A stretch of DNA of 64,000 nt from the NCBI RefSeq assembly GCF_000279145.1, contig NC_018178.1, positions 868,001 through 932,000 of the forward strand, written 5' to 3'. Below, one piece after another: positions 31,116 to 64,000 of this stretch. Below the pieces are notes generated by a model. The model was not told where the DNA came from. It saw only the letters and a list, made by a program, of their open reading frames with translations, and searched no databases. The position numbers and the translations under genes were made by a program. This DNA is from Melioribacter roseus P3M-2 (GTDB taxonomy: Bacteria; Bacteroidota; Ignavibacteria; Ignavibacteriales; Melioribacteraceae). Numbering within the stretch: position 1 is the stretch's first letter; each line of letters begins with the position of its first letter.

Positions 31116-31142
31116 TTTAAAAGAATTTAAATTTCTTTAAAT
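31116..31142. promoter_or_regulatory. Putative activator site (UAS) of the cus operon
   Basis: An AT-rich imperfect dyad, left half TTTAAAAGAA, centre TTTAAA, right half TTTCTTTAAAT (overlapping by one T). Its centre lies about 88 bp upstream of the start expected from the sigma-54-type promoter at 31192-31207. The same 12-mer ATTTCTTTAAAT occurs at 57116-57127 at the same distance from another such promoter. I infer an enhancer-binding-protein site. Confidence 0.55.
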
Positions 31143-31191: not shown

Positions 31192-31207
31192 CGGCACGGC
31201 TTTTGCA
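31192..31207 (+). promoter_or_regulatory. Sigma-54-type promoter of the cus operon
   Basis: The sequence CGGCACGGCTTTTGCA has the invariant GG (31193-31194) and GC (31205-31206) separated by exactly 10 bp, and fits the consensus TGGCACG-N4-TTGCA at all but the first base. The predicted start is near 31217. Confidence 0.65.
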
Positions 31208-32609: not shown

Positions 32610-34303
32610 TGAATAAGAAAATAATATTAATCGCATTGGTCGCGCTTGGAATAGCGGCAGCCGGATATTTTTTGTTTACGCAGGAAAAGAGCGTTCAAAC
32701 AACCGAAAATAAAACGGAAGAAAAGCAGCTCTGGACGTGCGGAATGCACCCGGAAATTATTTTGGAAGAGCCGGGCGACTGCCCGATTTGCGGTATGAAA
32801 TTAGTTCCTAAAAAAGGAACGGGCAAATCGAGCGGCGAAAGGAAAATTCTCTATTGGCGCGCACCGATGGACCCGAATGAAATTTACGACCATCCCGGCA
32901 AATCGAAAATGGGAATGGATCTGGTTCCGGTATACGAAGACGAAGCCGGCTCCTCCGGAATTGTTACAATCGACCCGGCGGTAGTTCAAAACATGAACGT
33001 TAAGACCGAAAAAGTAAAATCGATGCGACTTTCGAACATTGTCGTTACAAACGGAATTCTTACGACAAACGAACAAACCGATTACATAGTGACGACCAGG
33101 GTCAACGGGTGGATTGAGAAATTGTATATTAACTATACCGGACAAAAAGTGCATAAAGGCGACCGGCTGATGGATATCTACTCGCCCGAACTTGTCGCAG
33201 CCCAGCAGGAATTATTGTCCGCTATAGCCTATAAAAACGCCGTCAGCAAAACGGACGTAAACGATATTCTCGAAAGCGGCGATATGCTCATCAAGAACGC
33301 TATCAGGAAACTGGAGCTTCTTGAAATGTCCGACTCGGACATTAAAAAACTGATCGAGACGAAAGAAGTTAAAACCTACGCTACTCTCTACGCTCAGAAA
33401 AACGGAACCGTAATTTCGAAAAATGTGCTCGAAGGACAAAAAGTTATGCCGGGCATGCCGCTGCTTCAAATTTCGGATTTATCGTTATTGTGGCTGACCG
33501 CGGATATTTATGAATACGAACTCTCAAAAATAGAGTTAGGATCGAAATCCGAAATCCGTTTTAATTTTCTGCCGGATAAAATATTTACAGGAAAAGTAAG
33601 CTTTATATATCCGACAATCGAGCCCAAAACAAGAACGGCAAAAGTCAGGCTCGACATACCGAATAAAAGCGACTTGTTAAAACCCGCTATGCTCGCAAAT
33701 GTTACGATTTACGGCAAAGACCTGGGCGTTAAGCCCGTAGCGCCCGAAAACGCTGTAATACGCAGCGGAAGAAAAGATATCGTTATCATATCGTTGGGCG
33801 AAGGAAAATTCAAACCGCAGGAGATAAAACTCGGCGGATATGCAGACGGATATTATCAGGTTCTCGGCGGTTTAACAGAAGGAACTACCATAGTTACATC
33901 CGCTCAGTTCCTCATCGATTCCGAAAGCAATTTAAGAGCGGCTGTCAGCCAGTTTACATCCGGTTCGGCCGAAGTAATCAAATCCCCGCAAGATACTACT
34001 GCTTCCCACAATACGAATATCGAAATGAAGAGCGGCGAAACGCACGATGCGCACTCGCATGATAACATGAACAACGCCGGCATGGAAAAAGGTAAAAAGA
34101 ATGAATCGATTGTCCGGGAAGGCGTTATCGATTTGAAAGCGATCGACAGGAATAAAGACGGAAAAGTATATCAGGATTTGATGGACTGGAACGTTATCTC
34201 GGACGAACCCGGAAGGTGTCCGCTATGTAATATGATTTTATCCGAAGTAACTATAGAAGAAGCAAAACAAAATTTAATCGAACACGGTTTCCAAGTTAAG
34301 TAA
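32609..34303 (+). CDS. CusB-like RND adaptor with extra metal-binding domains
   Basis: A 564-residue periplasmic adaptor of a heavy-metal RND pump. After a membrane anchor (residues 5-25) come two heavy-metal-binding modules: WTCGMHPEIILEEPGDCPIC followed by GMKLVP near residues 43-68, and YWRAPMDPNEIYDHPGKSKM with GMDLVPVY near 82-110. The adaptor core follows (lipoyl, hairpin and beta-barrel domains). A polar His/Met stretch near 470-500 leads to a C-terminal module with an EF-hand-like loop DRNKDGKVYQD and CPLCNMIL. That last module also ends the secreted protein at 38117-38542. The layout is CusB-like for Cu+/Ag+; the tail could act like CusF in handing metal to the pump. Confidence 0.9.
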   Translation: MNKKIILIALVALGIAAAGYFLFTQEKSVQTTENKTEEKQLWTCGMHPEIILEEPGDCPICGMKLVPKKGTGKSSGERKILYWRAPMDPNEIYDHPGKSKMGMDLVPVYEDEAGSSGIVTIDPAVVQNMNVKTEKVKSMRLSNIVVTNGILTTNEQTDYIVTTRVNGWIEKLYINYTGQKVHKGDRLMDIYSPELVAAQQELLSAIAYKNAVSKTDVNDILESGDMLIKNAIRKLELLEMSDSDIKKLIETKEVKTYATLYAQKNGTVISKNVLEGQKVMPGMPLLQISDLSLLWLTADIYEYELSKIELGSKSEIRFNFLPDKIFTGKVSFIYPTIEPKTRTAKVRLDIPNKSDLLKPAMLANVTIYGKDLGVKPVAPENAVIRSGRKDIVIISLGEGKFKPQEIKLGGYADGYYQVLGGLTEGTTIVTSAQFLIDSESNLRAAVSQFTSGSAEVIKSPQDTTASHNTNIEMKSGETHDAHSHDNMNNAGMEKGKKNESIVREGVIDLKAIDRNKDGKVYQDLMDWNVISDEPGRCPLCNMILSEVTIEEAKQNLIEHGFQVK

Positions 34304-34317
34304 ATAAGGAGCTCCAG

Positions 34318-37300
34318 ATGTTTACCGATGAAAAACAAAAAGAAGGTTTAATTGCCAAATTAATAGAATGGTCTTTGAATAATAAGTTCTTGGTAATTCT
34401 TTTTACAGTGGCTTTAATCCTGGGAGGAATCTGGTCTGTTTTAAACACTAAAATAGACGCCATCCCCGATTTGAGCGACGTTCAGGTTATTATCTATACC
34501 GAATATCCGGGTCAGGGACCGCGAATCGTTGAAGACCAGGTAACTTATCCCCTTACGACAAAAATGCTGTCGGTGCCTTACGCAAAAGACGTGCGCGGTT
34601 ATTCTTTTTTCGGGTTCTCGATGGTTTATATAATATTTGAAGACGGAACGGATATTTATTGGGCAAGGAGCCGGGTTCTGGAATATCTGTCGGGTCTCCG
34701 CAGTTCTCTGCCGCAGGGAGTGTCGCCCGAATTGGGACCGGACGCAACCGGCTTAGGATGGGTTTATCAATACGTATTGAATTCCGACAAAAGAAGTCTT
34801 CAGGAACTCCGTTCGATTCAGGATTATTTTCTCAAGTACGAGCTTTCTTCGATTCCGGGAGTATCCGAAGTTGCAAGCATCGGCGGATACGTAAAACAAT
34901 ATCAGGTCAACGTAGATCCTACAAAACTGGCTTCTTACAATATACCGCTTCAGAAAGTTAAGACCGCTATACAACGCAGTAACAACGACGTCGGCGGACG
35001 ACTCCTTGAAATGGGCGAAACCGAGTTTATGGTGCGCGGTCTCGGATACATAAAAAGCGCAGACGATCTGAAAAACGTTTCGATCGGAGTTTCTCCAACT
35101 ACAGGAACGCCTATTTATCTTAAAGATGTAGCCACAATAAACATAGGTCCCGAACTTCGCAGAGGACTTGCCGATTGGAACGGCGAAGGCGAAACAGTAG
35201 GAGGAATTATAGTATTGCGCTACGGCGAGGACGCTCTTACCGTTATAAACAAAGTAAAAGAGCGGCTTGAAGAACTTAAAAAATCATTGCCCGAAGACGT
35301 TAAAATAGAAACGGCTTACGACCGTTCGTCGTTGATTAATAGCGCCATCGACAACCTCAAAGGGAAATTACTTGAAGAAACGATTATAGTTGCGCTGGTA
35401 ATAATTGCCTTTCTGCTCCATATCCGGAGTTCTTTCGTGGCAATTTTTACGCTGCCTACAGCCGTTCTCGTGTCATTCATACTAATGAAGCTGCAGGGTA
35501 TCAACGCAAACATAATGTCGCTCGGAGGCATAGCTATTGCAATAGGCGCTATGGTGGACGCGTCGATTGTTCTTGTTGAAAACGCCGCGAAGCACTTATC
35601 CGAAGAGTATGACAAGCCTCCGGAAAAGCAGAGACCTCACTGGAAGATTATTGCCGAGTCCGCCAAAGAAGTAGGACCTTCGATATTCTACTCGCTTCTA
35701 GTAATTACCATCTCCTTTCTGCCTGTCTTTACATTGGAACAGCAGGAAGGAAGATTGTTCAAACCGTTGGCGTTTACAAAAACGTACGCTATGGCGGGCG
35801 CGGCAATTCTTGCAGTTACAATCGTTCCTATATTGCTCGGTTATTTTGTGCGCGGGCGCATGCGAAAAGAAGAAGACAATCCTATTACAAAAGTTCTCGT
35901 CAGACTGTATCATCCCATAGTCGATTTTGTAATGCGGAGAAGATGGTGGGTAATGTCCGGAGCGTTAGTAATAATTTTATTTACAATATATCCTTATTCG
36001 AAATTAGGTTCGGAATTCATGCCTCCTTTATACGAAGGCGATTTGCTTTATATGCCGACTACTCTGCCCGGTATATCCGTTACAAAAGCAAGGGAGTTAT
36101 TGCAGCAGACCGATAAAATAATCAAGTCGTTTCCCGAAGTCGAATCGGTATTCGGCAAAATAGGAAGAGCCGAAACGGCAACCGACCCTGCGCCGCTTAC
36201 TATGGTGGAGACCACAATTCGATTGAAGCCCCGCGATCAATGGCGCGAGGGAATGACTCCCGATAAATTAGTCGAAGAACTCGACGCCGCTATTAAAATA
36301 CCCGGACTTACCAACGCATGGACTATGCCCATTAAAACCCGGATCGATATGCTTTCGACAGGGATAAAAACTCCCGTAGGAATTAAAATTGCCGGACCCG
36401 ATTTAAATGTGCTGCAAAAACTCGGAAAAGAAGTTGAAGAAATCATGAAAACAGTTCCCGGCACGCGTTCTGCATACGCCGAAAGGTCGGTCGGAGGCAA
36501 CTACGTCGATTTCAGGATTGACCGCGACGCTATCGCCAGATACGGTCTTACGGTTGGTGACGTCCAGGATGTATTTATGTCGGCTGTCGGCGGAATGAAC
36601 ATTACCAAAACCGTCGAAGGGTTGGAAAGATATCCGGTGAATCTCCGTTACATGCGCGATTACCGTGAAAACATCGACGCTTTAAAACGGGTGCTCGTGC
36701 CTCTTCCTTCCGGCGGAAATATACCTTTGGAACAGTTGGGTCAGATTGAAATCAAAAAGGGACCGCCGAGCATAAAATCCGAAAACGCGCGTCCAAACAC
36801 GTGGGTTTATGTCGATTTGAATCAAGACGCCGATGTGGGCACATATATTAGCAGGGCAAAAGAAATAATCGGTGATAAATTGCAATTGCCCGCGGGATAC
36901 TCGATCAAATGGTCGGGTCAGTATGAATACATGGAAAGATCTTCCAAACACCTTATGATGGTTGTGCCGCTTACTTTGTTAATTGTAATAGTGCTTCTGT
37001 ACATGAATACCAAGTCCGCATGGAAAACGGGCGTGGTATTGCTGGCGCTTCCTTTTTCAATGGTCGGAGCCATCTGGTACTTATACATCGCAGGTTTCAA
37101 TCTGAGCGTTGCCGTTTGGGTTGGCATAATAGCGCTGCTGGGAGTAGACGCCGAGACAGGCGTTGTTATGCTTCTCTATCTCGATCTGGCATACGAAAAA
37201 TATAAAAAGGAAGGAATGATGAAATCACTTTCCGACCTGCGCAATTCGATTTTTGAAGGCGCGGTTAAAAGAATTCGTCCGAAGATGATGACCGTAATGA

Positions 37301-37500
37301 CCACTCTGCTCGGTTTGCTTCCTATTATAATAGGAATCGGCACCGGATCGGACGTAATGAAAAGAATTGCGGCTCCGATGGTAGGCGGTATTATAACCAG
37401 TATGATAATGGAACTTACGGTTTATCCTGCAATTTACTATACGATTAAAAGAAGAGAAGTAAGAAAAATGTTGAATGCCTCAGACAAAACCGAGGCTTGA
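34318..37500 (+). CDS. cusA: CusA-like heavy-metal RND efflux pump
   Basis: A 1060-residue inner-membrane transporter of the HME-RND class. It has the two-fold RND plan: one transmembrane helix near residues 30-47, a large periplasmic loop, helices near 355-510, then the same again. Signatures: IDAIPDLSDVQVIIYTEYPG after the first helix, GAIGAMVDASIVLVENAAKH in the proton relay (written AIGAMVDASIVLVENA in the protein), and GVDAETGVVMLLYLDLAYE. It exports monovalent copper/silver or divalent Zn/Co/Cd; the copper-type neighbours favour Cu/Ag. GGAGCTCC lies before the ATG. It is the third gene of the CusCBA set. Confidence 0.93.
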   Translation: MFTDEKQKEGLIAKLIEWSLNNKFLVILFTVALILGGIWSVLNTKIDAIPDLSDVQVIIYTEYPGQGPRIVEDQVTYPLTTKMLSVPYAKDVRGYSFFGFSMVYIIFEDGTDIYWARSRVLEYLSGLRSSLPQGVSPELGPDATGLGWVYQYVLNSDKRSLQELRSIQDYFLKYELSSIPGVSEVASIGGYVKQYQVNVDPTKLASYNIPLQKVKTAIQRSNNDVGGRLLEMGETEFMVRGLGYIKSADDLKNVSIGVSPTTGTPIYLKDVATINIGPELRRGLADWNGEGETVGGIIVLRYGEDALTVINKVKERLEELKKSLPEDVKIETAYDRSSLINSAIDNLKGKLLEETIIVALVIIAFLLHIRSSFVAIFTLPTAVLVSFILMKLQGINANIMSLGGIAIAIGAMVDASIVLVENAAKHLSEEYDKPPEKQRPHWKIIAESAKEVGPSIFYSLLVITISFLPVFTLEQQEGRLFKPLAFTKTYAMAGAAILAVTIVPILLGYFVRGRMRKEEDNPITKVLVRLYHPIVDFVMRRRWWVMSGALVIILFTIYPYSKLGSEFMPPLYEGDLLYMPTTLPGISVTKARELLQQTDKIIKSFPEVESVFGKIGRAETATDPAPLTMVETTIRLKPRDQWREGMTPDKLVEELDAAIKIPGLTNAWTMPIKTRIDMLSTGIKTPVGIKIAGPDLNVLQKLGKEVEEIMKTVPGTRSAYAERSVGGNYVDFRIDRDAIARYGLTVGDVQDVFMSAVGGMNITKTVEGLERYPVNLRYMRDYRENIDALKRVLVPLPSGGNIPLEQLGQIEIKKGPPSIKSENARPNTWVYVDLNQDADVGTYISRAKEIIGDKLQLPAGYSIKWSGQYEYMERSSKHLMMVVPLTLLIVIVLLYMNTKSAWKTGVVLLALPFSMVGAIWYLYIAGFNLSVAVWVGIIALLGVDAETGVVMLLYLDLAYEKYKKEGMMKSLSDLRNSIFEGAVKRIRPKMMTVMTTLLGLLPIIIGIGTGSDVMKRIAAPMVGGIITSMIMELTVYPAIYYTIKRREVRKMLNASDKTEA

Positions 37501-37609: not shown

Positions 37610-38542
37610 ATGAAAGAGATAAAGGCTTACATAAGAAGAGAGCGCGCAGACTTAATAATTCAGAATCTCGAAAGCGCGGGAGTTAAGGGTATGACAGTTA
37701 TCGACGTCTACGCTCTGTGCGAATGGGCTGACCAGGATTCTTTCAGTTATTCGATTGAATTCGTGGAAAAGTACTCGAAAGTTATAAAACTGGAAATCGT
37801 CTGCGACGACGAAGAAGTAGAGAAACTTTCGGAAATAATTTTACGCTATGGACATACGGGAAAATCCGGCGACGGAATGATCTTCATTTCCCCCGTCGAA
37901 ACGTCCATAAAAATAAAAACAAAAGAAAAAACAAAATTTAACATGAACTATAAATTATTAACATTATTCGCGAAAGTAAAAAAGCGCACAGGCGAACGGG
38001 AATATTTCTGCAGTTATATAGCCCGCGACGGAAAGCCCGTTCAAGCCAGGATTACAAAATCCACGTACGATTTTTTAAAACAAAATTCATCTTCAAACAA
38101 AAAAAGGAGCTACAAAATGAAACGACTAAAATCTATCGACGCTGCCATACTGGCGCTAATTTTTGCCTTTGCATCTATTTCTTTTGCGCAAAGCAACTCA
38201 GATTCGACAAAATCGCAGCATAAAATGATGCACGACAAAAACCATAAAATGCATGAAATGATGAAGGATTCGGCAATGCACACCGAAACCATGGATATGC
38301 ATAAGATGAGGGGTTCCGATCATCATATGACGAAAAAAAGCCCGCTCATTCGCGAGGGAATAATCGACCTGGAGGCAATTGACGAAAACAAAGACGGCAA
38401 AGTCTTTCAGGACCAAATGGATTGGAACGTAATATCCGACAACCCCGGCTTTTGCCCGATTTGCGAAATGAAATTAAAAGAGACAACCCTCGATCAAGCT
38501 AAGAAAAAATTACTCGAACACGGCTATAAGGTAAAACAATAG
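37610..38542 (+). CDS. P-II-like protein, open in frame into the next gene
   Basis: Residues 1-105 form a P-II/GlnB-like domain (start MKEIKAYIRRERADLIIQNL; end GKSGDGMIFISPVETSIKIK). P-II proteins of this kind occur beside CusA-type pumps and may sense a ligand that controls them. Instead of stopping near residue 110 as usual, the frame continues through an unfamiliar 60-residue stretch (EYFCSYIARDGKPVQARITK) and then reads, without a stop codon, into a complete signal peptide and the metal-binding protein at 38117. A strong internal ribosome site argues that the distal part is mostly made separately. Loss of the original stop is the simplest explanation. Confidence 0.7.
   Translation: MKEIKAYIRRERADLIIQNLESAGVKGMTVIDVYALCEWADQDSFSYSIEFVEKYSKVIKLEIVCDDEEVEKLSEIILRYGHTGKSGDGMIFISPVETSIKIKTKEKTKFNMNYKLLTLFAKVKKRTGEREYFCSYIARDGKPVQARITKSTYDFLKQNSSSNKKRSYKMKRLKSIDAAILALIFAFASISFAQSNSDSTKSQHKMMHDKNHKMHEMMKDSAMHTETMDMHKMRGSDHHMTKKSPLIREGIIDLEAIDENKDGKVFQDQMDWNVISDNPGFCPICEMKLKETTLDQAKKKLLEHGYKVKQ
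38117..38542 (+). CDS. Secreted Met/His-rich metal-binding protein
   Basis: A 141-residue protein starting at the ATG at 38117, 7 bp after AAAAAGGAGC. It has a Sec signal (MKRLKSIDAAILALIFAFAS through SFAQ), a Met/His-rich stretch (HKMMHDKNHKMHEMMKD, MDMHKMRGSDHHM), and a C-terminal module with EF-hand-like DENKDGKVFQD and CPICEMKL. The module matches the CusB tail encoded at 34100-34300. It probably binds Cu+ in the periplasm and serves the pump, in the role CusF plays in enterobacteria, though it is not CusF-like in fold. It is the last gene before a terminator. Confidence 0.75.
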   Translation: MKRLKSIDAAILALIFAFASISFAQSNSDSTKSQHKMMHDKNHKMHEMMKDSAMHTETMDMHKMRGSDHHMTKKSPLIREGIIDLEAIDENKDGKVFQDQMDWNVISDNPGFCPICEMKLKETTLDQAKKKLLEHGYKVKQ

Positions 38543-48517: not shown

Positions 48518-48895
48518 CTATTTCACAATCAACTTCCCTTTAACCATTCCCATACCGCACTGAAAAACGTACTCGCCCGGTTTGTCTATTTTTAATTCAA
48601 CCGGGATGGTTTTAAATGGAGTTAAAGTCGCGCGTTTATTGAAATCGGAAAACACAACTTCTTCGGTACAGCTGGCGGTTTCTTCTCTTATGAAATTGAG
48701 TCTGATTGGTTTACCGGCTTCGAAAATTAAAACATCGGGCGTGTATCCGCCTTTTACATTTATTACGGCTTCCTGAATTCCGGATTCGCTTGCTTCAACT
48801 TTAACCGCCTTTTTCTCGGAGAACCAGAAATACCAGGCTACAAGCGCGGAAAGTCCCAAACCTCCGAAAAGTACAATTATCTGGTCGATAGTCAT
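48518..48895 (-). CDS. Membrane-anchored cupredoxin-like protein
   Basis: A 125-residue protein with an N-terminal helix (IIVLFGGLGLSALVAWYFWF) and a cupredoxin domain (GGYTPDVLIFEAGKPIRLNF; ETASCTEEVVF; GEYVFQCGMGMVKGKLIVK). The cysteine in ASCTEEV and CGMGM at the C-terminal loop are possible copper ligands, while the classical histidines are missing, as in the Cupredoxin_1 proteins found beside CopA. It lies 12 bp downstream of the CopA gene and may pass copper to or from the pump. Confidence 0.85.
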   Translation of the reverse strand: MTIDQIIVLFGGLGLSALVAWYFWFSEKKAVKVEASESGIQEAVINVKGGYTPDVLIFEAGKPIRLNFIREETASCTEEVVFSDFNKRATLTPFKTIPVELKIDKPGEYVFQCGMGMVKGKLIVK

Positions 48896-48907: not shown

Positions 48908-51595
48908 TTATAATTTTGGTCTAAATCTTCTCAGACGGTTGGCATTTGTAACCACCGTTACTGAACTGAAAGCCATTGCAGCGCCTGCTATAATAGGCGA
49001 TAACAATATACCGAAGAAAGGATAAAGCATTCCGGCAGCTATCGGTATTCCGATCCCATTATAGAAAAATGAACCGAATAAATTTTCTTTAATATTTTTC
49101 ATCGTCGCTTTCGAAAGTTGAATAGCCGTAACCACGCCTTTAAGACTTCCTTTAATAAGCGTAATATCCGAAGCTTCGATTGCAACATCAGTTCCGGTTC
49201 CAATTGCAAGACCGATATCTGCCTGCGCGAGAGCGGGCGCGTCGTTTATACCGTCGCCGACCATTGCGACTTTTTTCCCTTCGTTCTGAAGTTTCTGAAC
49301 ATTAAAAGCTTTGTCTTCCGGCAGAACTTCCGCAAGCACTCTGTCGATACCGACCTGTCGCGCAATAGCGTTAGCCGTTCGACTGTTGTCGCCGGTTATC
49401 ATCACAACTTCAAGTCCCATCTTTTTCAATTGAGCAATAGCTTCTTTAGAATCTTTTTTAATTACGTCGGCTACGGCTACGATTCCGGCTGCTTTATTGT
49501 CAATTGCGACATACATCGGAGTTTTGCCTTCGTCAGCCAGGCTTTCGCTTACGGATTGCAGATCGCCCAGATCGATATTGAATTTCATCATTAATTTCAG
49601 ATTGCCCAAAAGAACTTTTCTTCCGTTAATCTCCGCTTCGATGCCATGCCCGGGAATAGCATTAAAGTTTTTCGGATCGTACAATTCAAGATTTTTATCC
49701 GCTGCGCCTTTGACAATCGCTTCCGCAAGCGGATGCTCCGAAGCTTTTTCGGCGCTGGCGCTCAACGCAAGAACGGTATTTTTGTCAAAGCCGTTAACGG
49801 CGATTACATCAGTTAACGAAGGCTTTCCTTCGGTTATTGTTCCGGTTTTATCGAGAACAATCGTATCGAGTTTTTGAGCTGTTTCCAACGCTTCGCCGCT
49901 TCTGATCAATATTCCGTTTTCCGCGCCTTTACCTACTCCAACCATGAGCGATATAGGCGTTGCCAATCCCAGAGCGCAAGGGCATGCAATTACAAGAACA
50001 GTTACAAATACAATCAAAGCGTAGACTAATTGAGGCTCGGGACCGAAGATATACCAGACGACAAAAGATAAAATTGCCAGTATAATTACCGCCGGCACAA
50101 AATAGCCCGATACCTGATCGACTATTCTTTGTATAGGAGCTTTAGAACTCTGTGCCTGTTCGACCATCTGAATTATTTGAGCAAGCGCCGTATCCTTTCC
50201 AACTTTTGTAGCTTTGAATTTGAACGAGCCTGTTTTGTTGATTGTAGCGCCTATAACTTCGTCGCCCGCATGTTTTTCCACGGGAATCGGCTCGCCGGTA
50301 ATCATCGATTCGTCAATTGAAGAAGAGCCTTCAATAACAATACCGTCGACAGGAATTTTCTCTCCCGGTCTTACGATTATTATGTCGTCCAGAACTACTT
50401 CTTCAACGGGAGTATCGACTTCTTTGCCTTCTCTAATAACCCGCGCTGTTTTTGCCTGAAGACCGATTAATTTTTTTATGGCTTCGGAGCTTTTTCCTTT
50501 AGCTTTAATTTCAAGCGCCATTCCAAGCACAACCAGAGCCACAACCACAAAGACGACGTCATAGAATTGATCGGCCAATTCCGCTTTGGGAAAGAGAGAA
50601 GGGAAATAAGTAGCTATTGTAGAATAAATCCACGCGGCGGAAATTCCGATTGCAATCAATGTATGCATATTTGCAGATCGATTTTTAAAAGCCGACCAGG
50701 CTCCGGTAAAAAATTGAGAACCCGACCAGAACATAACCGGCAAAGCAAGCAAGCCCATCGCCATCCATATGTAACGCAGAGTTTCGCTTCCGCGCTGAAA
50801 TTCGGCCGGCAATCCCCACAGAGTAGGATAACTAAAAAACACAACCGGGATTGCCAGTATGCCTGCGAATATGAATTTTTTCATTAACGTTTTATATTCT
50901 TTTTCGCGGGCAATCTGATTTTCGTCAACCGGTTCTCCTTCTTTAGCCTTATCCGGTTTTACCCCTGCGGTATCGAACGTTTCATATCCTAATTTTTCTA
51001 TTACCTTCTTAATGTCCGAGACATTAATCATTCCTGGTATATAATTTATAACCGCCGATTCGGTCGCAAGGTCGACGCTTGCCGAGATTACGCCTTTTGT
51101 TTCATTCAACTCTTTTTCAATTTTAGTGACGCACGAAGCGCAATGCATTCCGCCGATTCCCAACTTAAGTACGGAGCGGCCTGTTTTATATCCCGCTTTT
51201 TTGATCGCTTCGATTATATCGTCCGTTTTTACGCTTTCAGAATCGTAATCGACGTATGCAGTAGCGGTAGCGTAATTTACTACCGCCGATTTAACGCCGG
51301 GGAGTTTTTTAACCTCTTTTTCGATTGTAAGGGCGCAGGTCGAGCAATGCATATCAACGATTGGAAGTTGCGCTTTTTGAAGTCCGTATAACGTAGATCT
51401 GTACGAAGGCCCGTCGTCTTCGGATTTATTTATATAAGACTCCGGGTTAAGAGCAAACTTTTGCCGGCAATCTTCCGAACAAAACTCAAATATTTTTCCA
51501 CTTAATTCCAGGTAAAACTGCGAAGGGCTTTTAACCTGCATTCCGCAAACGGGGTCGTAAGCAATATTTTTTTTCGTGTTTCGAGAGCTTTCCAT
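48908..51595 (-). CDS. copA: CopA-type copper P-type ATPase with YHS domain
   Basis: An 895-residue P1B-type ATPase that exports Cu+ from the cytoplasm. Order: YHS domain (residues 12-57, DPVCGMQV and FCSEDC), two heavy-metal-associated domains with MHCSTC (Cys84, Cys87) and MHCASC (Cys152, Cys155), then eight membrane helices with the CPC motif in [12 protein letters not shown], phosphorylation site DKTGT, TGE-type loop ITGEPIPV and [10 protein letters not shown]. All catalytic residues are present. The fused N-terminal YHS domain is less usual. It is the third gene of a unit that begins with the Met-rich protein. Confidence 0.95.
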
Positions 51596-51852: not shown

Positions 51853-52251
51853 TTATTTTTTGTGGTGTTTTTCGTGTTCGGATTCATTCATAACTTTTGT
51901 CGAATCCGATTTCATCATATCGTGATTCATCATTTTGTCTCCCATCATGCCCTTATCGCCGCGCATCATTTTCATCATCATCATATGCATGTCGGGGTTA
52001 TCCATCATCATCTTACACATCTGCATCATGCCGGTGGAATCGCTTTTTACGTGTTCCATCATTTTCTGCATCATCATGCCTCTCATGTGTTCGTCCGATG
52101 CGATTTTATCCATACATTCCTGCATGTTTTTGTCCTGCATCATCATGTGATCTGTTTTTTTCTCTGCAGGTTTTTCCTGCGCATATAGCGCGATTGAAAA
52201 GATCATAACCGTTACGGTTACCACGGCGAAAGAAATTCTTTTTGTTAACAT
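51853..52251 (-). CDS. Met/His-rich periplasmic copper-binding protein
   Basis: A 132-residue protein with a Sec signal (IFSIALYAQ) and an extreme methionine content: about 30 Met in the mature part, in runs such as KMMMDNPDMHMMMMKMM, plus a histidine-rich tail (SEHEKHHKK). Met-rich sequences bind Cu+ and Ag+ in the periplasm. It is the first gene of the copper-ATPase unit, right behind the sigma-54-type promoter at 52290-52305. No fold is recognised; it is probably a metal sponge. Confidence 0.8.
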   Translation of the reverse strand: MLTKRISFAVVTVTVMIFSIALYAQEKPAEKKTDHMMMQDKNMQECMDKIASDEHMRGMMMQKMMEHVKSDSTGMMQMCKMMMDNPDMHMMMMKMMRGDKGMMGDKMMNHDMMKSDSTKVMNESEHEKHHKK

Positions 52252-52289: not shown

Positions 52290-52305
52290 TTGCAAAAACC
52301 CTGCC
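52290..52305 (-). promoter_or_regulatory. Sigma-54-type promoter of the copA unit
   Basis: On the minus strand the sequence TGGCAGGGTTTTTGCA has GG (52304-52303) and GC (52293-52292) exactly 10 bp apart; it fits TGGCAC-N5-TTGCA with one mismatch. The predicted start is near 52281, 30 bp before the ATG of the Met-rich gene. Confidence 0.65.
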
Positions 52306-52365
52306 ATAATTTTTTGTTTGATTTTCATCGGAAATCAACGATTTAACAAACTATTAATTAACAAT

Positions 52366-52394
52366 TTTAAAAAATATTTAGCTTTCTTAAATTC
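52366..52394. promoter_or_regulatory. Putative activator site (UAS) of the copA unit
   Basis: TTTTAAAAAATATTTAG followed by CTTTCTTAAATT resembles the palindrome at 31116-31142 base for base over most of its length. Its centre is about 99 bp upstream of the predicted start, one helical turn further than in the other two good cases. Confidence 0.5.
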
Positions 52395-53652: not shown

Positions 53653-53859
53653 TCAATGATGATGCGAATGCCCCGGTTCTTCATCTTTTTTTATATAATT
53701 CTCCGGCTGCTGGTCAAATTGTATTCTGCATAAATCCGAACAGAAATAATATTTTTTCCCTTCGTAATGAGACGCCGGCGCTTTGTCGATGTCTTTAATT
53801 ACCATACCGCATACCGGGTCCTGAATTTGACGCGTATCTTTTGTTTTTCCGTGTTCCAT
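53653..53859 (-). CDS. Small YHS-domain protein, His-tailed
   Basis: A 68-residue protein that is almost only a YHS domain (QDPVCGMVIKDIDKAPASHY; KYYFCSDLCRIQF) with a histidine-rich end (GHSHHH). YHS domains bind metals, often copper in such islands. It lies between the His-rich membrane peptide and the FAD-enzyme gene. AGGAGG precedes the ATG. Confidence 0.9.
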   Translation of the reverse strand: MEHGKTKDTRQIQDPVCGMVIKDIDKAPASHYEGKKYYFCSDLCRIQFDQQPENYIKKDEEPGHSHHH

Positions 53860-53910: not shown

Positions 53911-54078
53911 TTAGCTGCAGCATCCGTGGCGTCTGCCCGAATGATTATGTCCATGTGATTGCTCATGTCGATGTTCTCTCATATCGCTATGAGGGTCAGC
54001 TTCGACTTTTCTGTTTCTGAAATAGCCGATTAAGCCGAAAACCGCTATTAAACCGAATACAAACAGCAAAAAATCCAT
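53911..54078 (-). CDS. Small His-rich membrane peptide
   Basis: A 55-residue frame starting MDFLLFVFGLIAVFGLIGYF (one membrane helix) and ending with a histidine-rich tail (HSDMREHRHEQSHGHNHSGR) and CCS. ACGGAGGATAAA stands right before the ATG, a strong ribosome site. It should be anchored in the inner membrane and bind metal with its tail. First gene behind the promoter candidate at 54113-54128. Confidence 0.75.
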   Translation of the reverse strand: MDFLLFVFGLIAVFGLIGYFRNRKVEADPHSDMREHRHEQSHGHNHSGRRHGCCS

Positions 54079-54112: not shown

Positions 54113-54128
54113 TGCAAAAAGCATACCC
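54113..54128 (-). promoter_or_regulatory. Weaker sigma-54-type promoter candidate
   Basis: On the minus strand GGGTATGCTTTTTGCA has GG and GC spaced by 10 bp and a good -12 part (TTTTTGCA), but the -24 part deviates (GGTATG instead of GGCACG). It precedes the His-rich peptide, YHS and FAD-enzyme genes. Confidence 0.4.
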
Positions 54129-54190
54129 GAATATTATTATCGTAAAAACGTCAAATTTTCCGGTTTTCGGTTTATTCGTCGAAACAAAAT

Positions 54191-54223
54191 TTAATTTTCT
54201 TAAAAGCGAATTAAGAAAATTAA
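54191..54223. promoter_or_regulatory. Perfect 13-bp inverted repeat (UAS or terminator)
   Basis: TTAATTTTCTTAA and TTAAGAAAATTAA are perfect complements separated by 7 bp. It lies directly after the DUF302 stop codon and could serve as its terminator, but the stem is almost pure AT. The TTTTCTTAA half-sites match those at the other three metal promoters, and its centre is about 104 bp upstream of the start predicted from 54113-54128. Confidence 0.5.
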
Positions 54224-54624: not shown

Positions 54625-55105
54625 TTATTTGATGTAACCGTGTTCCAGATTTAATATCGACTCTCTGTCGTCGAAATGTTTATTCCAAACTTGTTCGATT
54701 GAATAGACGATCGAAAATTGAATTCTGTGCTCGTTATTCGTAATAAGGCACGCCGTCCATACGCCACGGCGCATGCATACCATGCCAATGGATTGTATGG
54801 TTTAACTCGGTCTTATTCCTGAAGATAACTCTGACATTGTCGCCTCTGTTTACACGTATTTCAGGTCCGGGAACCGAATTATTAAAAGCGAGGGTGTGAA
54901 TAACAAACCCAGGCGCAATTTCGCGCCGTGCAATATCAATAAAAAGTTCATATTCTTTTAGAATCCCGTTATTTCTGACGGGCTCCAGTACATTGGGGAA
55001 ATTTTTCTTATTACGCTCAACGGCTTCTTTCCCTAACAGGTCGGCCGGCATAAATGCGGCGGCGGAAATAATAGCGGCGTTGTTTATAAATTCCCTCCTT
55101 TTCAA
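54625..55105 (-). pseudogene. Truncated multicopper oxidase remnant
   Basis: The frame 55105-54734 encodes only the first ~123 residues of a multicopper oxidase: a Tat-like start (KRREFINNAAIISAAAFMPA), the first cupredoxin domain and the first copper motif TIHWHGMHAPW, then it stops after DGVPYYE. Full enzymes need ~450 more residues and three further copper motifs. Right after the break another frame reads TNNEHRIQFSIVYSIEQVWN then KHFDDRESILNLEHGYIK and a stop, which looks like the end of a different gene. A large internal deletion that joined two genes explains both. No oxidase activity is expected. Confidence 0.75.
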
Positions 55106-55314: not shown

Positions 55315-55587
55315 TCATTGTTGACGCTTCTCTTTATTTTTAATTTTAATATATTTTTCCGGACTCAAATCGAATTTTGCTTTGCATGTTTCCGAACAGA
55401 AAAAATATGTTTTGCCTTTATAGACCGACTCCTGAGCCAGAAGTATATTATGAATAACAATGCCGCAAACGGGGTCGGCTATAAATTTACCGCTGTTATT
55501 TTTATTCGCTTTGCCATCCATACCCATTCCATCGTTAGATTCATCAAATTGCTTATCAGTACATGAGCGGAATATAATACAGGGCAA
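55315..55587 (-). CDS. Small YHS-domain protein
   Basis: A protein of up to 90 residues with one YHS domain (ADPVCGIVIHNILLAQESVY; KTYFFCSETCKAKFDL) and a basic end. The start is uncertain: the frame opens with a TTG directly after the stop of the preceding YHS gene, while the first in-frame ATG is at 55527 and lacks a clear ribosome site. It lies downstream of another YHS gene on the same strand. Confidence 0.8.
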   Translation of the reverse strand: MPCIIFRSCTDKQFDESNDGMGMDGKANKNNSGKFIADPVCGIVIHNILLAQESVYKGKTYFFCSETCKAKFDLSPEKYIKIKNKEKRQQ

Positions 55588-55821
55588 TCAGAATCGATAA
55601 CCTTTTATATAAAGCATCGACTTGTCGCAATCGCATTTATCCGGCTTTATGCCATTCAATTCGATTGACGAATCAAAGAAATCGACGTAACTTTCGGGAG
55701 CTTTGACGAACAACGATTTGCATTTGGGGCAGCAGAAATAGTACATCCTGCCATTATATGCAATCCGCGGCGCCGATTCGATGTTATTCAACTCCATTCC
55801 GCATACCGGATCGATTTCCAT
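55588..55821 (-). CDS. Small YHS-domain protein
   Basis: A 77-residue YHS protein (IDPVCGMELNNIESAPRIAY; YYFCCPKCKSLF) with an added CDCDKS near the end. AAGGAGAA lies before the ATG. It follows the small membrane protein at 55826 with a 4-bp gap. Presumed metal carrier in the envelope or cytoplasm; no signal peptide is visible. Confidence 0.88.
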   Translation of the reverse strand: MEIDPVCGMELNNIESAPRIAYNGRMYYFCCPKCKSLFVKAPESYVDFFDSSIELNGIKPDKCDCDKSMLYIKGYRF

Positions 55822-55825
55822 TTGC

Positions 55826-56092
55826 TTATTCTCCTTTTTCGAAGAAATAATTGTCTATCCAGTTATAAATAAGCATAAAAAAGAATCCCAGAACCCAGCC
55901 CCAAATAAACGCCGCAGCCAGTCCTCCCAATACCGTATAAATAGTAATTGAATCGACAAAAGGCATCATGGTTCTAATATAAGGCAAGGCGTCGATATCG
56001 GAAACGAGCGTTTTAATAATCGCCAAAAGGAACAACGCCGCTCCCGCTACGCCTGTAATGATACCGAAATAAACGGAACTATATTTTTTCAT
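55826..56092 (-). CDS. Small two-helix membrane protein
   Basis: An 88-residue protein with two or three hydrophobic segments (YFGIITGVAGAALFLLAIIK; YTVLGGLAAAFIWGWVLGFF). It resembles small bacterial membrane proteins (DUF5676-like) often found in copper/mercury islands. AGGAGGAGAAG precedes the ATG, and the next YHS gene follows after 4 bp. Function unknown. Confidence 0.75.
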   Translation of the reverse strand: MKKYSSVYFGIITGVAGAALFLLAIIKTLVSDIDALPYIRTMMPFVDSITIYTVLGGLAAAFIWGWVLGFFFMLIYNWIDNYFFEKGE

Positions 56093-56101
56093 CTTCTCCT
56101 C

Positions 56102-56671
56102 CTACGATATTTCAGCGTTCTTGGACTTTTCAAAATAATTCAACGTCCCCGAAATTATTAAAGCAGTATAAGCGCTATATATAATAATTTCGACGATGCC
56201 GAGTAAGTAACTATAGAAATTCAAACTTTTGAATCCGGGCAACAGTATCTCCCATATTTTTATCATGCTGTATTGCGGCGGCATTAAAATATCGTAGACG
56301 ACGCACAGCGTAAATACAAGAATCAGAAAGACTGCAAACGATAAGAAAAGACTTTTGAACCTGAGATATATCAACTTAGACTGGTAAGAATTCTTTTTGA
56401 ATTTATCGCGCAGCAGATAATTGTAGATTGGAACCGTAATATAGCCGAATGCATAAGATCCGACCGACACTTCCAGAAGACCAATTAAAATACTGAGAGA
56501 ATCGAGACCGTTAAATCCCGGTAAAAACAAAAGCCATATTTTGTGCATCTGCCAGATAGAGTTGCTTCCCGAGTCGGCTAAAATCAGACCGATGCTTATA
56601 CAAATACCGTAGAATATAGTGAAAATAAAAAAGAGCGACACCGCTACCGGATACGGTTCTAACCTTTTCAT
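56102..56671 (-). CDS. Membrane protein with internal duplication
   Basis: A 189-residue membrane protein made of two similar halves. Each has a helix, then a loop and second helix with a shared core: MHKIWLLFLPGFNGLDSLSI in the first and MIKIWEILLPGFKSLNFYSY in the second, both followed by L-[IL]-G-[IL]-[LV]-E-V/I. The halves resemble the two-helix protein encoded next to it. GAAGGGGGAAG precedes the ATG. Role unknown. Confidence 0.75.
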   Translation of the reverse strand: MKRLEPYPVAVSLFFIFTIFYGICISIGLILADSGSNSIWQMHKIWLLFLPGFNGLDSLSILIGLLEVSVGSYAFGYITVPIYNYLLRDKFKKNSYQSKLIYLRFKSLFLSFAVFLILVFTLCVVYDILMPPQYSMIKIWEILLPGFKSLNFYSYLLGIVEIIIYSAYTALIISGTLNYFEKSKNAEIS

Positions 56672-56735: not shown

Positions 56736-56999
56736 TTACATATGGACTTTACTGCTTCTGAAAGCGCTTGTCCTCTTTTGGAGCGTCCGCTTTACGGCGA
56801 TAACTTTCGCATTGTAAACGTCGAAACCGTGCCGTTTGGATTTAAGAAACCGGCTCGGTTTTTTAGCGGAATAAATCTCCGCCTTCGTCGAGCGATATTT
56901 CATTGCGTTAAAGTTTTTTCCGTAGATATCGGCATTAATGCCGGTAAGTATAAGAGCGGCTGCTAAAAAGGCGGCGGCTTTAAAGAACCTGAGTTTCAT
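56736..56999 (-). CDS. Small basic secreted protein
   Basis: An 87-residue protein starting at the ATG at 56999, right behind AACGGAGGAGCAC (strong ribosome site); a longer frame to 57056 crosses the promoter and is rejected. A Sec signal (LRFFKAAAFLAAALILTGIN) leaves a ~65-residue mature part rich in Lys, Arg, Ser and Tyr, without cysteines. I do not recognise it. It is the gene immediately behind the best sigma-54-type promoter of the window, so it should be strongly induced under the inferred metal control. Confidence 0.7.
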   Translation of the reverse strand: MKLRFFKAAAFLAAALILTGINADIYGKNFNAMKYRSTKAEIYSAKKPSRFLKSKRHGFDVYNAKVIAVKRTLQKRTSAFRSSKVHM

Positions 57000-57033
57000 G
57001 TGCTCCTCCGTTAATTGTGTCCATACGCTAATA

Positions 57034-57049
57034 TGCAACTGTCGTGCCA
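57034..57049 (-). promoter_or_regulatory. Sigma-54-type promoter (best match)
   Basis: On the minus strand TGGCACGACAGTTGCA matches the sigma-54 consensus TGGCACG-N4-TTGCA at every fixed base, with GG (57048-57047) and GC (57036-57035) 10 bp apart. The predicted start is near 57024, 25 bp before the ATG at 56999. Confidence 0.75.
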
Positions 57050-57098
57050 TTGTCAATTATTCATTTTCTATCCATTTACAGCCATTTGTCGCCGGTCA

Positions 57099-57127
57099 TT
57101 TAAATAATCTTAAATATTTCTTTAAAT
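57099..57127. promoter_or_regulatory. Putative activator site (UAS)
   Basis: TTTAAATAATCTTAAATA followed by TTTCTTTAAAT aligns with the site at 31116-31142 (same ends, same TTAAAT centre). Its centre is about 89 bp upstream of the predicted start. Confidence 0.55.
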
Positions 57128-59410: not shown

Positions 59411-59481
59411 TAATGGAAGATTCTTAAATATCCTTTTCAGAATAAAGTCTGTCAATAATCGAATTGAAGAGGCTTAGAGGC

Positions 59482-60036
59482 GCACACCGAGTTTATCGAA
59501 GCGTGGATTGAGTAAAGATACGAACACACACTGAGTCTATCAAAGTGTGAATTGAGTGAAGATGCGAACGCACACTGAGTTTATCGAAGTGTGAATTGAG
59601 TGAAGATGCGAACGCACACTGAGTTTATCGAAGTGTGGATTGAGTGAAGATGCGGGCGCACACTGAGTTTATCGAAGTGTGAATTGAGAGAAGATGCTGG
59701 CGCACACTGAGTTTATCGAAGCGTGAATTGAGATAAGATACGAGCGCACGCTGAGTTTATCGAAGCGTGAATTGAGTGAAGATGCGGGCGCACACTGAGT
59801 TTATCGAAGTGTGAATTGAGTGAAGATGCGGGCGCACACTGAGTTTATCGAAGTGTGAATTGAGTGAAGATGCGAACGCACACTGAGTTTATCGAAGCGT
59901 GCATTGCGGAAAGATGTTGACGCACACTGAGTCTATCAAAGTGTGAATCGAGTGAAGATACGAACGCACGCTGAGTTTATCGAAGTGTGAATTGAGTGAA
60001 GATGCGAACGCACACTGAGTTTATCGAAGCGTGCGG
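59482..60036. repeat. Thirteen tandem 44-bp hairpin repeats
   Basis: Thirteen head-to-tail units of about 44 bp, typically GCACACTGAGTTTATCGAAG then TGTGAATTGAGTGAAGATGC and GAAC. Each unit has the dyad CACACT...AGTGTG around GAGTTTATCGA. Some units carry CACGCT...AGCGTG instead, changing both arms together. The last copy breaks off at GCGTGCGGAATAATC. The core (GCTGAGTTTATCGAAGC) is related to the CTTCGACAAGCTCAGC palindromes at 60507-61535. Confidence 0.9.
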
Positions 60037-60503: not shown

Positions 60504-61688
60504 ACGCTTCGACAGGCTCAGCGTTCGTGCAAATGCTGTAAGAAAAGTTTCGTATTCAGTACATTGATTTTATCGCGAAATATTACTTTGTAAGCATTCA
60601 AACTGAGTGTACACATACTTCGCTTCGACAAGCTCAGCGTCCGGCAAAGCAATTCTATCCGCCGGAGTCGGGTACGATTAATCCCGCATTCTGCGGGACG
60701 GCTCTCTAGCCTATCGGCTAGTTCGCCAGACTCTATTTTCGAAGCGAACCCGTCCCTGAGGGTGAACGGTGACGCTTCGACAGGCTCAGCGTCCGCTAGA
60801 ACTTAGCAGAAATACCGCTTCGACAGGCTCAGCGTCCATGCAAAGCTATTCTACCCGTCGGAGTCAGGTATGATTAATCCCGCATTCTGCGGGACGGCTC
60901 TCTAGCCTATCGGCTAGTTCGCCGGACTCTATTTTCGGAGTGAACCCGTCCCTGAGGGTGAACGGTAACGCTTCGACAAGCTCAGCGTCCATGCTAAGCA
61001 ATTCTACCCGTCGGAGTCGGGCATGATTAATACAAATATCGCAAACCAATTTTGTAACATCGGATTTTCGGAGTGAGCCCGTCGACTGACGGACGAACGG
61101 AGACCCCGCTGTAAGCGGGGCAATTCTACCTGACGTGTCGGGTACGATTAATCCCGCATTCTGCGGGACGGCTCTCTAGCCTATCGGCTAGTTCGCCGGA
61201 CTCTATTTTCGAAGCGAACCCGTCCCTGAGGGTGAACGGTAACGCTTCGACAAGCTCAGCGTCCATGCTAAGCAATTCTACCCGTCGGAGTCGGGCATGA
61301 TTAATACAAATATCGCAAACCAATTTTGTAACATCGGATTTTCGGAGTGAGCCCGTCGACTGACGGACGAACGGAGACCCCGCTGTAAGCGGGGCAATTC
61401 TACCTGACGTGTCGGGTACGATTAATCCCGCATTCTGCGGGACGGCTCTCTAGCCTATCGGCTAGTTCGCCGGACTCTATTTTCGAAGCGAACCCGTCCC
61501 TGAGGGTGAACGGTAACGCTTCGACAAGCTCAGCGTCCATGCTAAGCAATTCTACCCGTCGGCGTCGGGTACGATTAATCCCGCATTCTGCGGGACGACT
61601 CTCTAGCCTTCCGGCTAGTTCGTCGGACTCTATTTTCGGAGTGAGTCCGTCGACTGACGGACGAACGGAGACCCCGCTGTAAGCGGGG
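60504..61688. repeat. Mosaic of REP-like palindromes
   Basis: About 1.2 kb made of recurring pieces: CTTCGACARGCTCAGCGT at 60507, 60623, 60774, 60818, 60971, 61245 and 61519; TCCCGCATTCTGCGGGA; CTAGCCTATCGGCTAG; CCCCGCTGTAAGCGGGG; and CCGTCCCTGAGGGTGAACGG. Most are hairpins. From 60971 to 61518 two copies of a 274-bp unit look identical. Seven positions also carry split CRISPR-repeat halves (CAATTCTAC and TACGATTAA). Short open frames here are repeat sequence, not genes. Confidence 0.9.
60971..61518. repeat. Perfect tandem duplication, 274-bp period
   Basis: The stretch beginning CTTCGACAAGCTCAGCGTCC at 60971 recurs at 61245 and its first part again at 61519. The first two copies look identical over all 274 bp, so the duplication is recent or kept uniform by recombination. 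Confidence 0.85.
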
Positions 61689-62781
61689 CAATTCTACAAT
61701 AGTACGATTAAGACTGTAAAGGATCGCAACGGCAAGGTAATTAGAAAAGCATTTCAATTCTACAATAGTACGATTAAGACATTGAAGATGATTCTTGCAG
61801 TCATACGGCACACATAATTTCAATTCTACAATAGTACGATTAAGACCCTACCCTGAAGACGTTCTTATTGAATACATAGAGATTTCAATTCTACAATAGT
61901 ACGATTAAGACTCGCTTTTTATCCGCTCCCTCCACATCCCTTGCAAATATTTCAATTCTACAATAGTACGATTAAGACTGCTCGACCCTAACGCCGCCGA
62001 TTATCAAATATATCATTTCAATTCTACAATAGTACGATTAAGACACGAATTAACAACGGTATTTTGGGTGCCATTAGAGGCAATTTCAATTCTACAATAG
62101 TACGATTAAGACGACCACTTACGGATATTGCACTATACTCGAAGATTAATTTCAATTCTACAATAGTACGATTAAGACGGCAATCGCCGGTTGTGGTATG
62201 GAGATATAGAAGTTAATTTCAATTCTACAATAGTACGATTAAGACTTCTTCTTTAACGGCCAGGAATCTGCAACTGAATTCGCATTTCAATTCTACAATA
62301 GTACGATTAAGACTCGTAACTTCTCTCTGCTTCTTCTACTTCGTCTCTCAATTTCAATTCTACAATAGTACGATTAAGACATTATTAACGAAACTACAAA
62401 AGAAAAACTATTAAAATATTTCAATTCTACAATAGTACGATTAAGACACGCCGCCGCCTTTTTTCTGAATCGAGTCGAGTATGATTTCAATTCTACAATA
62501 GTACGATTAAGACTTTTTAATGAAGATTGTTAATTCATTTATTAATTCCTATTTCAATTCTACAATAGTACGATTAAGACTCAAAAATTTTGCTCCGCTG
62601 GTTCCCGGAAATTATTATTTCAATTCTACAATAGTACGATTAAGACGCTCGCATGGGACAATATGTACATGAGCCAGGCTACTCATTTCAATTCTACAAT
62701 AGTACGATTAAGACTTTCTTCAACTAAAAATAAATCATTTTCAATACTATAATTTCAATTCTACAATAGTACGATTAAGAC
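61689..62781 (-). CRISPR. CRISPR array, 17 repeats and 16 spacers
   Basis: The 30-bp repeat, on the minus strand, starts GTCTTAATCGTACTA and ends TTGTAGAATTGAAAT; the ATTGAAAY end is typical of type I-B and III arrays. Repeats begin (plus-strand coordinates) at 61689 (truncated to 26 bp), 61751, 61817, 61882, 61949, 62015, 62083, 62149, 62216, 62284, 62351, 62418, 62484, 62551, 62617, 62685 and 62752. The 16 full repeats look identical; spacers are 35-38 bp. The leader and cas2/cas1 are on the high-coordinate side, so the newest spacer is 62715-62751 and the oldest 61715-61750. I saw no spacer match inside this window. Confidence 0.98.
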
Positions 62782-62930
62782 CCGCTAAATTTCATAATTT
62801 TCAGCCTGTTTTGCAAGTATTTTTTTCACTTTGCGTCGTCGACCTCCGATAGTGCAAAAATCCCGGGGGGTCGACGACTTTTTTGCATTCGAGCTTAATC
62901 AGCCCGTCATTTTTATAGCGTCCGACCGTT
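62782..62930 (-). promoter_or_regulatory. CRISPR leader with long palindrome
   Basis: The 149 bp between the first repeat and the cas2 stop are AT-rich near the array and contain a perfect 10-bp inverted repeat GTCGTCGACC (62835-62844) / GGTCGACGAC (62869-62878) with a 24-bp loop that ends CCCGGG. It should hold the array promoter and the integration-guiding sequence, and may also terminate the cas transcript (TTTTTTGC on one side). Confidence 0.75.
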
Positions 62931-63194
62931 TTATATAAACGAATCGATTTCATTTTTCTCCACGCCTATTATTCCCCTGTCGTGATAGTTTTGCGAATCG
63001 AACCGGTAATAAATTACGCTGTCTTTCTTGTCGTTTATTATATCTTTTATACCGTGTTTCAGGTTTTCAAATCCGCTCTCGGTTAGTTCGCCCTCGAAAA
63101 CGGAATTCTGAACCCAGTTCAAATGCTGTCGTAAAAACTTCATCAACTTTACGCCTCTTTTCGGCGCCGCGTCGTAAACCACAATTACATACAT
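62931..63194 (-). CDS. cas2: CRISPR-associated protein Cas2
   Basis: An 87-residue Cas2 (MYVIVVYDAAPKRGVKLMKF; LNWVQNSVFEGELTESGFEN; VIYYRF). The N-terminal beta-strand with its Asp, the RG turn and the S-V-FEG segment are all typical. With Cas1 it forms the complex that inserts new spacers. It lies 1 bp after cas1 and directly upstream of the leader. Confidence 0.97.
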   Translation of the reverse strand: MYVIVVYDAAPKRGVKLMKFLRQHLNWVQNSVFEGELTESGFENLKHGIKDIINDKKDSVIYYRFDSQNYHDRGIIGVEKNEIDSFI

Positions 63195-63195
63195 T

Positions 63196-64000
63196 TTACC
63201 ACCAGATTGTAAACGGTTTATATTCTTTTTCGCCTATAATATGTTTAATTAACTTATAACATTCCAGTCTTATCAAATGCCTGTAACTTACGTTTCTTTT
63301 AAGCTGCCTGTGTTTTATAGTAGTTTTAAGCTTTTCGTCGAATTCTTTTAGAAATATTTTTCTTCCGTCTTCGGTCAAATAACACTTATTGAGTTCTTTG
63401 CTGAAATGTTTTTCCTGAATTTGATTTTTATTGAGCAAAGAAAAAATAATCCTGTCGGCGAGCAACGGCTTAAATACCTCCGCAATGTCCAAAGCCAGGG
63501 AAAATCTTCTTTCTCCCGGCTCGTGAAGATAACTGATCAGGGGATTTAACTGTGTTCTGTAGATTTCGCTCAACACAACGGTATAGACCAACGAATTGCC
63601 GAAAGATATGAGAGCGTTAATGGGATTGGACGGCGGACGTTTTTCCCGTTTTTCAAAATTAATTTCGGGATTTACTATTAAATTCCACGCCATGTAATAA
63701 TCAGACCTTAAATTGCCTTCGACGCCCATCAACTCCTGCACGTCGCGGCAGTCGGGTATTTTTCGAATAGCCTCTTCGGCTTTGTCGATAAAATACGAAA
63801 GGTCTTTATCGCGACCGTTATAATACTGTAAATTTTTTTTGATGTTTTCCGCCGCTCCGATTATGAATTTTTTAGCAATCTCCAGACGCGCTTCTTTATC
63901 CAGATGCCTTTTAACCTGCTCAACCAATAGCCTGCCCGACAAATAAGGTTCGCGCGGATAAAACGAAGAAGTATAATATCCGTAGTAATTGAAAAGATGA
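63196..64000 (-). CDS. cas1: CRISPR integrase Cas1, 5' end outside window
   Basis: The frame is open to the window edge, giving about 268 residues of a protein that is normally ~330 long; the missing part is the N-terminal beta domain. Visible are HLFNYYGYYTSSFYPREPYL at the edge, ELMGVEGNLRSDYYMAWN (metal-binding Glu), LISYLHEPGERRFSLALDIA with EVFKPLLADR (catalytic His and Asp/Glu). The likely type is I-B, judging from the repeat and Cas1 sequence style. Interference genes must lie beyond 64000. Confidence 0.95.
   Translation of the reverse strand, partial: HLFNYYGYYTSSFYPREPYLSGRLLVEQVKRHLDKEARLEIAKKFIIGAAENIKKNLQYYNGRDKDLSYFIDKAEEAIRKIPDCRDVQELMGVEGNLRSDYYMAWNLIVNPEINFEKREKRPPSNPINALISFGNSLVYTVVLSEIYRTQLNPLISYLHEPGERRFSLALDIAEVFKPLLADRIIFSLLNKNQIQEKHFSKELNKCYLTEDGRKIFLKEFDEKLKTTIKHRQLKRNVSYRHLIRLECYKLIKHIIGEKEYKPFTIWW

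Follow-up and report, generated by a model that had tools for sequence, protein, structure and literature searches.

Four intergenic sites in the copper island of Melioribacter roseus P3M-2, here termed A to D, are probably the sigma-54 promoters of one copper/silver-defence regulon under the control of a distantly encoded kinase-regulator pair. A GG-N10-GC scan of the window (the whole 64,000-nucleotide stretch of DNA analysed) gave as its best intergenic candidates the sites at 57034(-), 31192(+), 52291(-) and 54113(-), all four of them intergenic and upstream of metal genes, each with an AT-rich dyad 50-90 bp further upstream. The initial annotation, which had spoken of four promoter and palindrome sites, was right in this respect.

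Site A is a sigma-54 (-24/-12) promoter with the sequence TGGCACGACAGTTGCA (57034-57049, minus strand), and a pattern search of the window for TGGCACN5TTGCA returned no exact match besides this one. As initially annotated, every fixed base agrees and the site lies 25 nt before the ribosome-binding sequence GGAGGAG, with 34 nt separating it from the ATG at 56999, and transcription is predicted to start at approximately 57022-57024. The palindrome described at 57099-57127 does exist, but a pair of overlapping AT-rich elements describes it better than a single one. The first of these, the putative enhancer (UAS) TTTAAGATTATTTAAA (57099-57114, minus strand), is a TTTAA-N6-TTAAA dyad graded as good, whose end lies 49 bp upstream of the promoter 16-mer, while the second, TTTAAAGAAATATTTAA, adjoins and overlaps it and reaches 57127. 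The operon behind site A begins with a secreted basic protein of 87 aa that belongs to no family (56736-56999, minus strand) and for which the 79 family genomes contain no convincing homolog. It is followed on the same strand by a membrane protein with a DUF5676-like C-terminus (56102-56671), a small membrane protein (55826-56092) and two YHS-domain proteins (55588-55821 and 55315-55587). Homologs of the DUF5676-like protein are confined to genomes possessing the 7TM kinase described below (7/7), and in one lineage the homolog also lies behind a sigma-54 site with an enhancer. An N-terminal fragment of a multicopper oxidase is found at 54734-55105; relatives have full-length genes for this enzyme (569-742 aa) near the kinase-regulator pair.

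The remaining sites also precede metal genes. Site C has the promoter GGGTATGCTTTTTGCA (54113-54128, minus strand) and the enhancer TTTAAGAAAATTAAA (54190-54204, minus strand), and leads to a membrane peptide of 55 aa with a His/Cys-rich tail (53911-54078, minus strand), homologs of which stand behind like sites in relatives (L114, L142), and to a YHS-domain protein (53653-53859, minus strand) whose YHS matches also occur in relatives. At site B, both the promoter TGGCAGGGTTTTTGCA, with one mismatch (52291-52306, minus strand), and the enhancer TTTAAGAAAGCTAAA, which is degenerate (52377-52391, minus strand), lie before a gene for a secreted Met-rich protein (51853-52251, minus strand), homologs of which follow enhancer and sigma-54 sites in three other genomes (G031, G034, G064). 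Downstream are CopA, identified by profile search and sequence as a Cu+-type P1B ATPase with CPC and YN/MxxSS motifs (48908-51595, minus strand), and, behind copA and with support from synteny, a cupredoxin-like membrane-anchored protein (48518-48895, minus strand). Site D, on the plus strand, consists of the promoter CGGCACGGCTTTTGCA (31192-31207), kept in the same-genus genome G050 as CGGCACGTCTTTTGCA, and of two overlapping enhancers, TTTAAAAGAATTTAAA and TTTAAATTTCTTTAAA (31116-31141). It precedes genes for a CusC-like outer-membrane channel (31335-32609), a CusB-like adaptor with a heavy-metal-binding domain (32609-34303) and a CusA-type RND pump (34318-37500). At 37610-38542 a P-II domain and a secreted heavy-metal-binding-domain protein share a single ORF. 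Relatives encode the two separately, behind cusA, and the joint ORF is either a fusion or a sequence error.

The window also has a CRISPR array of 17 repeats spaced at approximately 67 nt, beside cas2 and cas1 on the minus strand (61670-62784 and 62931-63942). Next to it are two tandem arrays (59481-60033 and 60848-61579), one of 44 bp in 12.6 copies and the other of 274 bp, the latter containing pieces that resemble the CRISPR repeat.

With regard to the metal, the score of the CusA-type pump is 1220 bits with CusA of E. coli versus 525 bits with the zinc pump ZneA, and the pump retains the methionine triad for Cu/Ag at the positions of M573, M623 and M672 of E. coli CusA. Together with the copper-type CPC motif of CopA, these features point to copper/silver as the likely substrate of the island. 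The M. roseus genome encodes no protein of the CsoR family (PF02583) and no CusR/CopR/SilR-type regulator above the TIGR01387 cut-off.

A lone sigma-54 consensus site proves nothing in this genome, since the exact consensus gives two matches versus two for the reversed control, and it was rejected as sole evidence. The second exact site (C1:513799; L023, L004), which possibly marks another regulon, is flanked by a Dps-like gene on one side and the gene for a GAF-type sigma-54 activator on the other. The composite of enhancer and promoter (TTTAA-N5/6-TTAAA, 40-70 bp, GGYA-N6-TTGC) behaves differently. In the 3.3-Mb genome of M. roseus it has four matches at three places, all within the island, versus none for the control, so that the genome scan for the site pair proposed with the initial annotation came out in its favour. 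Across the 79 family genomes there are 44 matches versus six for the control, of which the 22 inside genes were counted as chance. Among the 19 intergenic places, 16 lie before cusC-type, Met-rich/copA, His-rich-peptide or YHS genes and three are not before copper genes. As both patterns were derived in part from sites A to D themselves, sigma-54 sites in metal loci were also picked by score alone to limit that bias, and the dyad was present at 8 of the 11 versus 0.24 expected from dinucleotide shuffling (maximum of three in 1000 shuffles). The composite is therefore clearly above chance. That such pairs arise by chance from AT-rich DNA and a relaxed consensus, the genes being really controlled by ordinary housekeeping promoters, is accordingly a very improbable explanation; it would be in keeping with the two-versus-two count for the exact consensus and with a looser form of the composite, which was uninformative in the M. 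roseus genome (10 matches versus seven for the control), but it is opposed by the strict composite counts, by the finding that 16 of the 19 intergenic places, in different genera, lie at metal genes and by the shuffle test, and no sigma-70-like site was found on the strand of the gene.

The geometry of the sites is regular. The sigma-54 core has GG and TTGC in all of 20 sites, and the promoters show the GG at -24 and GC at -12 separated by 10 bp, as well as the TGGCAC-N5-TTGC pattern, by which sigma-54 promoters are recognised. In the same 20 sites the dyads end at -49 to -51, -58 to -61 or -68 to -71 relative to the promoter 16-mer, with one weak extra at -40, a phasing reached in 0 of 10000 trials of a Rayleigh test. 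The three distances correspond to one face of the helix, and an upstream activator site thus stands in fixed relation to the promoter. The very AT-rich motif and its 10-bp period, reminiscent of phased tracts, could also be taken to mean that the palindromes are IHF-like, curvature or UP-like elements which aid the promoters without binding an activator. This is an improbable reading, as what recurs is a dyad built of TTTAAA half-sites, tracts with a T-A junction of this polarity bend DNA little, and the dyad occurs at metal genes and not at sigma-54 sites generally.

A regulatory apparatus suited to such sites is present. The M. roseus genome has rpoN, a check that the initial annotation had called for, and 15 strong sigma-54 activator genes, none of which lies inside the window. 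The candidate regulator (C1:1023587-1024936; L010 family) is of the NtrC type, with REC, sigma-54 AAA+ and Fis HTH domains, and follows the gene for a 7TM histidine kinase of 698 aa (C1:1024936-1027029; L083). As the pair lies approximately 100 kb from the copper island and is unlinked to it, its assignment to the island depends on relatives. Its orthologs there, with 59-89% identity, form a single clade that includes the M. roseus regulator, and their recognition helix LGISLPTLYSKIE is near-invariant. In ten relatives cusCBA follows them directly, and at 36 Ignavibacteria loci, judged where the contig was long enough, they adjoin cusCBA, copA, multicopper oxidase or YHS/membrane genes in nearly all cases, the clear exception being a locus from the same genus (L115). 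The expectation of an activator near metal genes thus holds in relatives but not in M. roseus itself. Sigma-54 control of the island through an upstream enhancer, as initially proposed, is nevertheless well supported by rpoN, the 15 activators, the phased operator and the linked activator family. Several relatives in which the pair accompanies cusCBA have no recognisable sigma-54 site before cusC (e.g., L058, L061, L063). A PAS-type activator (L006) with a Cys motif and the activator nearest to the island (L013) were dropped as candidate copper regulators because the L010 family alone recurs beside copper genes. L006 (C1:523374), whose Cys-rich motif is CKQVFQSDLCTGKC, is a possible metal or redox sensor in its own right.

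Within the order, the kinase family extends over three families and is encoded in 51 of 164 genomes. Within the Melioribacteraceae it is associated with cusC (22/5/13/39, p = 2.5e-6 with kinship ignored), 13 genomes having cusC without the 7TM kinase, and it is present in all 11 genomes with composite sites at metal genes. At its N-terminus are seven predicted TM helices with a TM4-TM5 hairpin, followed by a further TM pair and a HAMP domain, and the protein also carries a PAS domain; the structure model is of moderate confidence (pLDDT 75). HisKA_7TM (PF16927) is matched by 6 of 31 orthologs, and a fold search with the sensor gave weak 7TM matches, none at E < 0.001. Residues H52, H55, C71 and H72 are invariant among the orthologs, and H124 and H126 nearly so, which may reflect metal binding at these His/Cys positions. 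We tentatively suggest, at somewhat less than even odds, that the kinase represents a new class of Cu/Ag sensor, which would bind Cu(I) through HxxH/CH/SHxH and drive the main copper-efflux regulon of the order through a sigma-54 activator; the HxxH would lie in TM2, the CH in TM3 and the SHxH in the TM4-TM5 hairpin, at the outer face of the membrane. It is also conceivable, if unlikely, that sites A to D share their enhancer as described while another of the 15 activators binds it, in response to a signal other than copper itself such as redox state, the quinone pool or envelope stress. The number of activators, the unlinked position of the pair and a multi-TM sensor with a putative ligand, plus a PAS domain, would all suit such an arrangement, but only orthologs of the L010 family recur beside cus/copA genes, and both the presence of the kinase in every genome with metal composite sites and its conserved His/Cys residues argue for the pair.

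The favoured reading of one regulon under this pair builds on what the sequence shows: promoters with phased operators that are confined to metal genes, a regulator linked to copper genes in relatives, and rpoN. On this reading, the 7TM kinase and the NtrC-type regulator would sense copper or silver in the envelope. The regulator, once phosphorylated, would bind at least one TTTAA-N5/6-TTAAA dyad, at a distance of about 50, 60 or 70 bp on the upstream side of -24, and, positioned on one helix face, remodel the sigma-54 closed complex. This would switch on CusCBA, CopA with the Met-rich secreted protein, and the small YHS, His-rich and membrane proteins. Phosphorylation of the regulator, its binding to the dyad operator, the copper/silver signal and the induction of the island by copper are predicted here from genomic data.

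The initial annotation had considered sigma-54 control of copper genes to be new, a claim which does not stand, as CorSR of Myxococcus xanthus has been described as a sigma-54-type two-component system for the curA copper operon (curA; copA, multicopper oxidase), which has four putative sigma-54 promoters (PMC3707914). The present system resembles it in pairing a kinase with a sigma-54-type response regulator for the control of copper genes, in the REC, sigma-54 AAA+ and Fis HTH architecture of that regulator and, in relatives, in linkage to copper genes, the M. roseus pair itself being unlinked. Compared by description, it differs in having a regulon of several operons including CusCBA and a defined phased operator; moreover, CorS combines a single TM helix with a periplasmic sensor, whereas the Melioribacter kinase has a 7TM-type sensor with HAMP and PAS domains. 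ZraSR (HydHG) of E. coli likewise pairs an NtrC-type regulator with a kinase and responds to metal/envelope stress via sigma-54, but equivalog scores are far below the cut-offs (ZraR 374 of 760, ZraS 167 of 479), and ZraSR serves zinc and ZraP, not Cus/CopA, and has a different sensor. CusRS, CopRS and SilRS also provide two-component control of CusCBA-type Cu/Ag efflux; their regulators, however, are OmpR-type and act on sigma-70 promoters, unlike the NtrC-type regulator here. The kinase shares an N-terminal 7TM region with HisKA_7TM kinases such as PrsK, from which it differs by the extra TM pair and HAMP, the conserved HxxH and CH and the linkage to copper genes, its PrsK score being far below the cut-off. 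The word "copper" is absent from the main text of a broad survey of sigma-54 regulons (PMC12316311) and of a Desulfovibrio regulome paper (PMC4641369), and a literature search found, under the terms used, no publication that combines Ignavibacteria, sigma-54 and copper. The logic is hence the same as that of CorSR, while the motif and operator, the 7TM His/Cys sensor, the multi-operon CusCBA regulon and the Ignavibacteriales-wide range look new.

For copper/silver defence in the Ignavibacteriales, on which the literature search brought up no published account, these results supply an operator sequence with its spacing rule as well as candidates for the regulator and the metal sensor. The ATP-dependent activation of sigma-54 would mean near-zero basal expression together with strong induction, properties useful for metal biosensors. 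The results also suggest that sigma-54 control of copper genes, known from Myxococcus, is wider than one would expect from the textbook lists of CueR, CusRS, CsoR and CopY.
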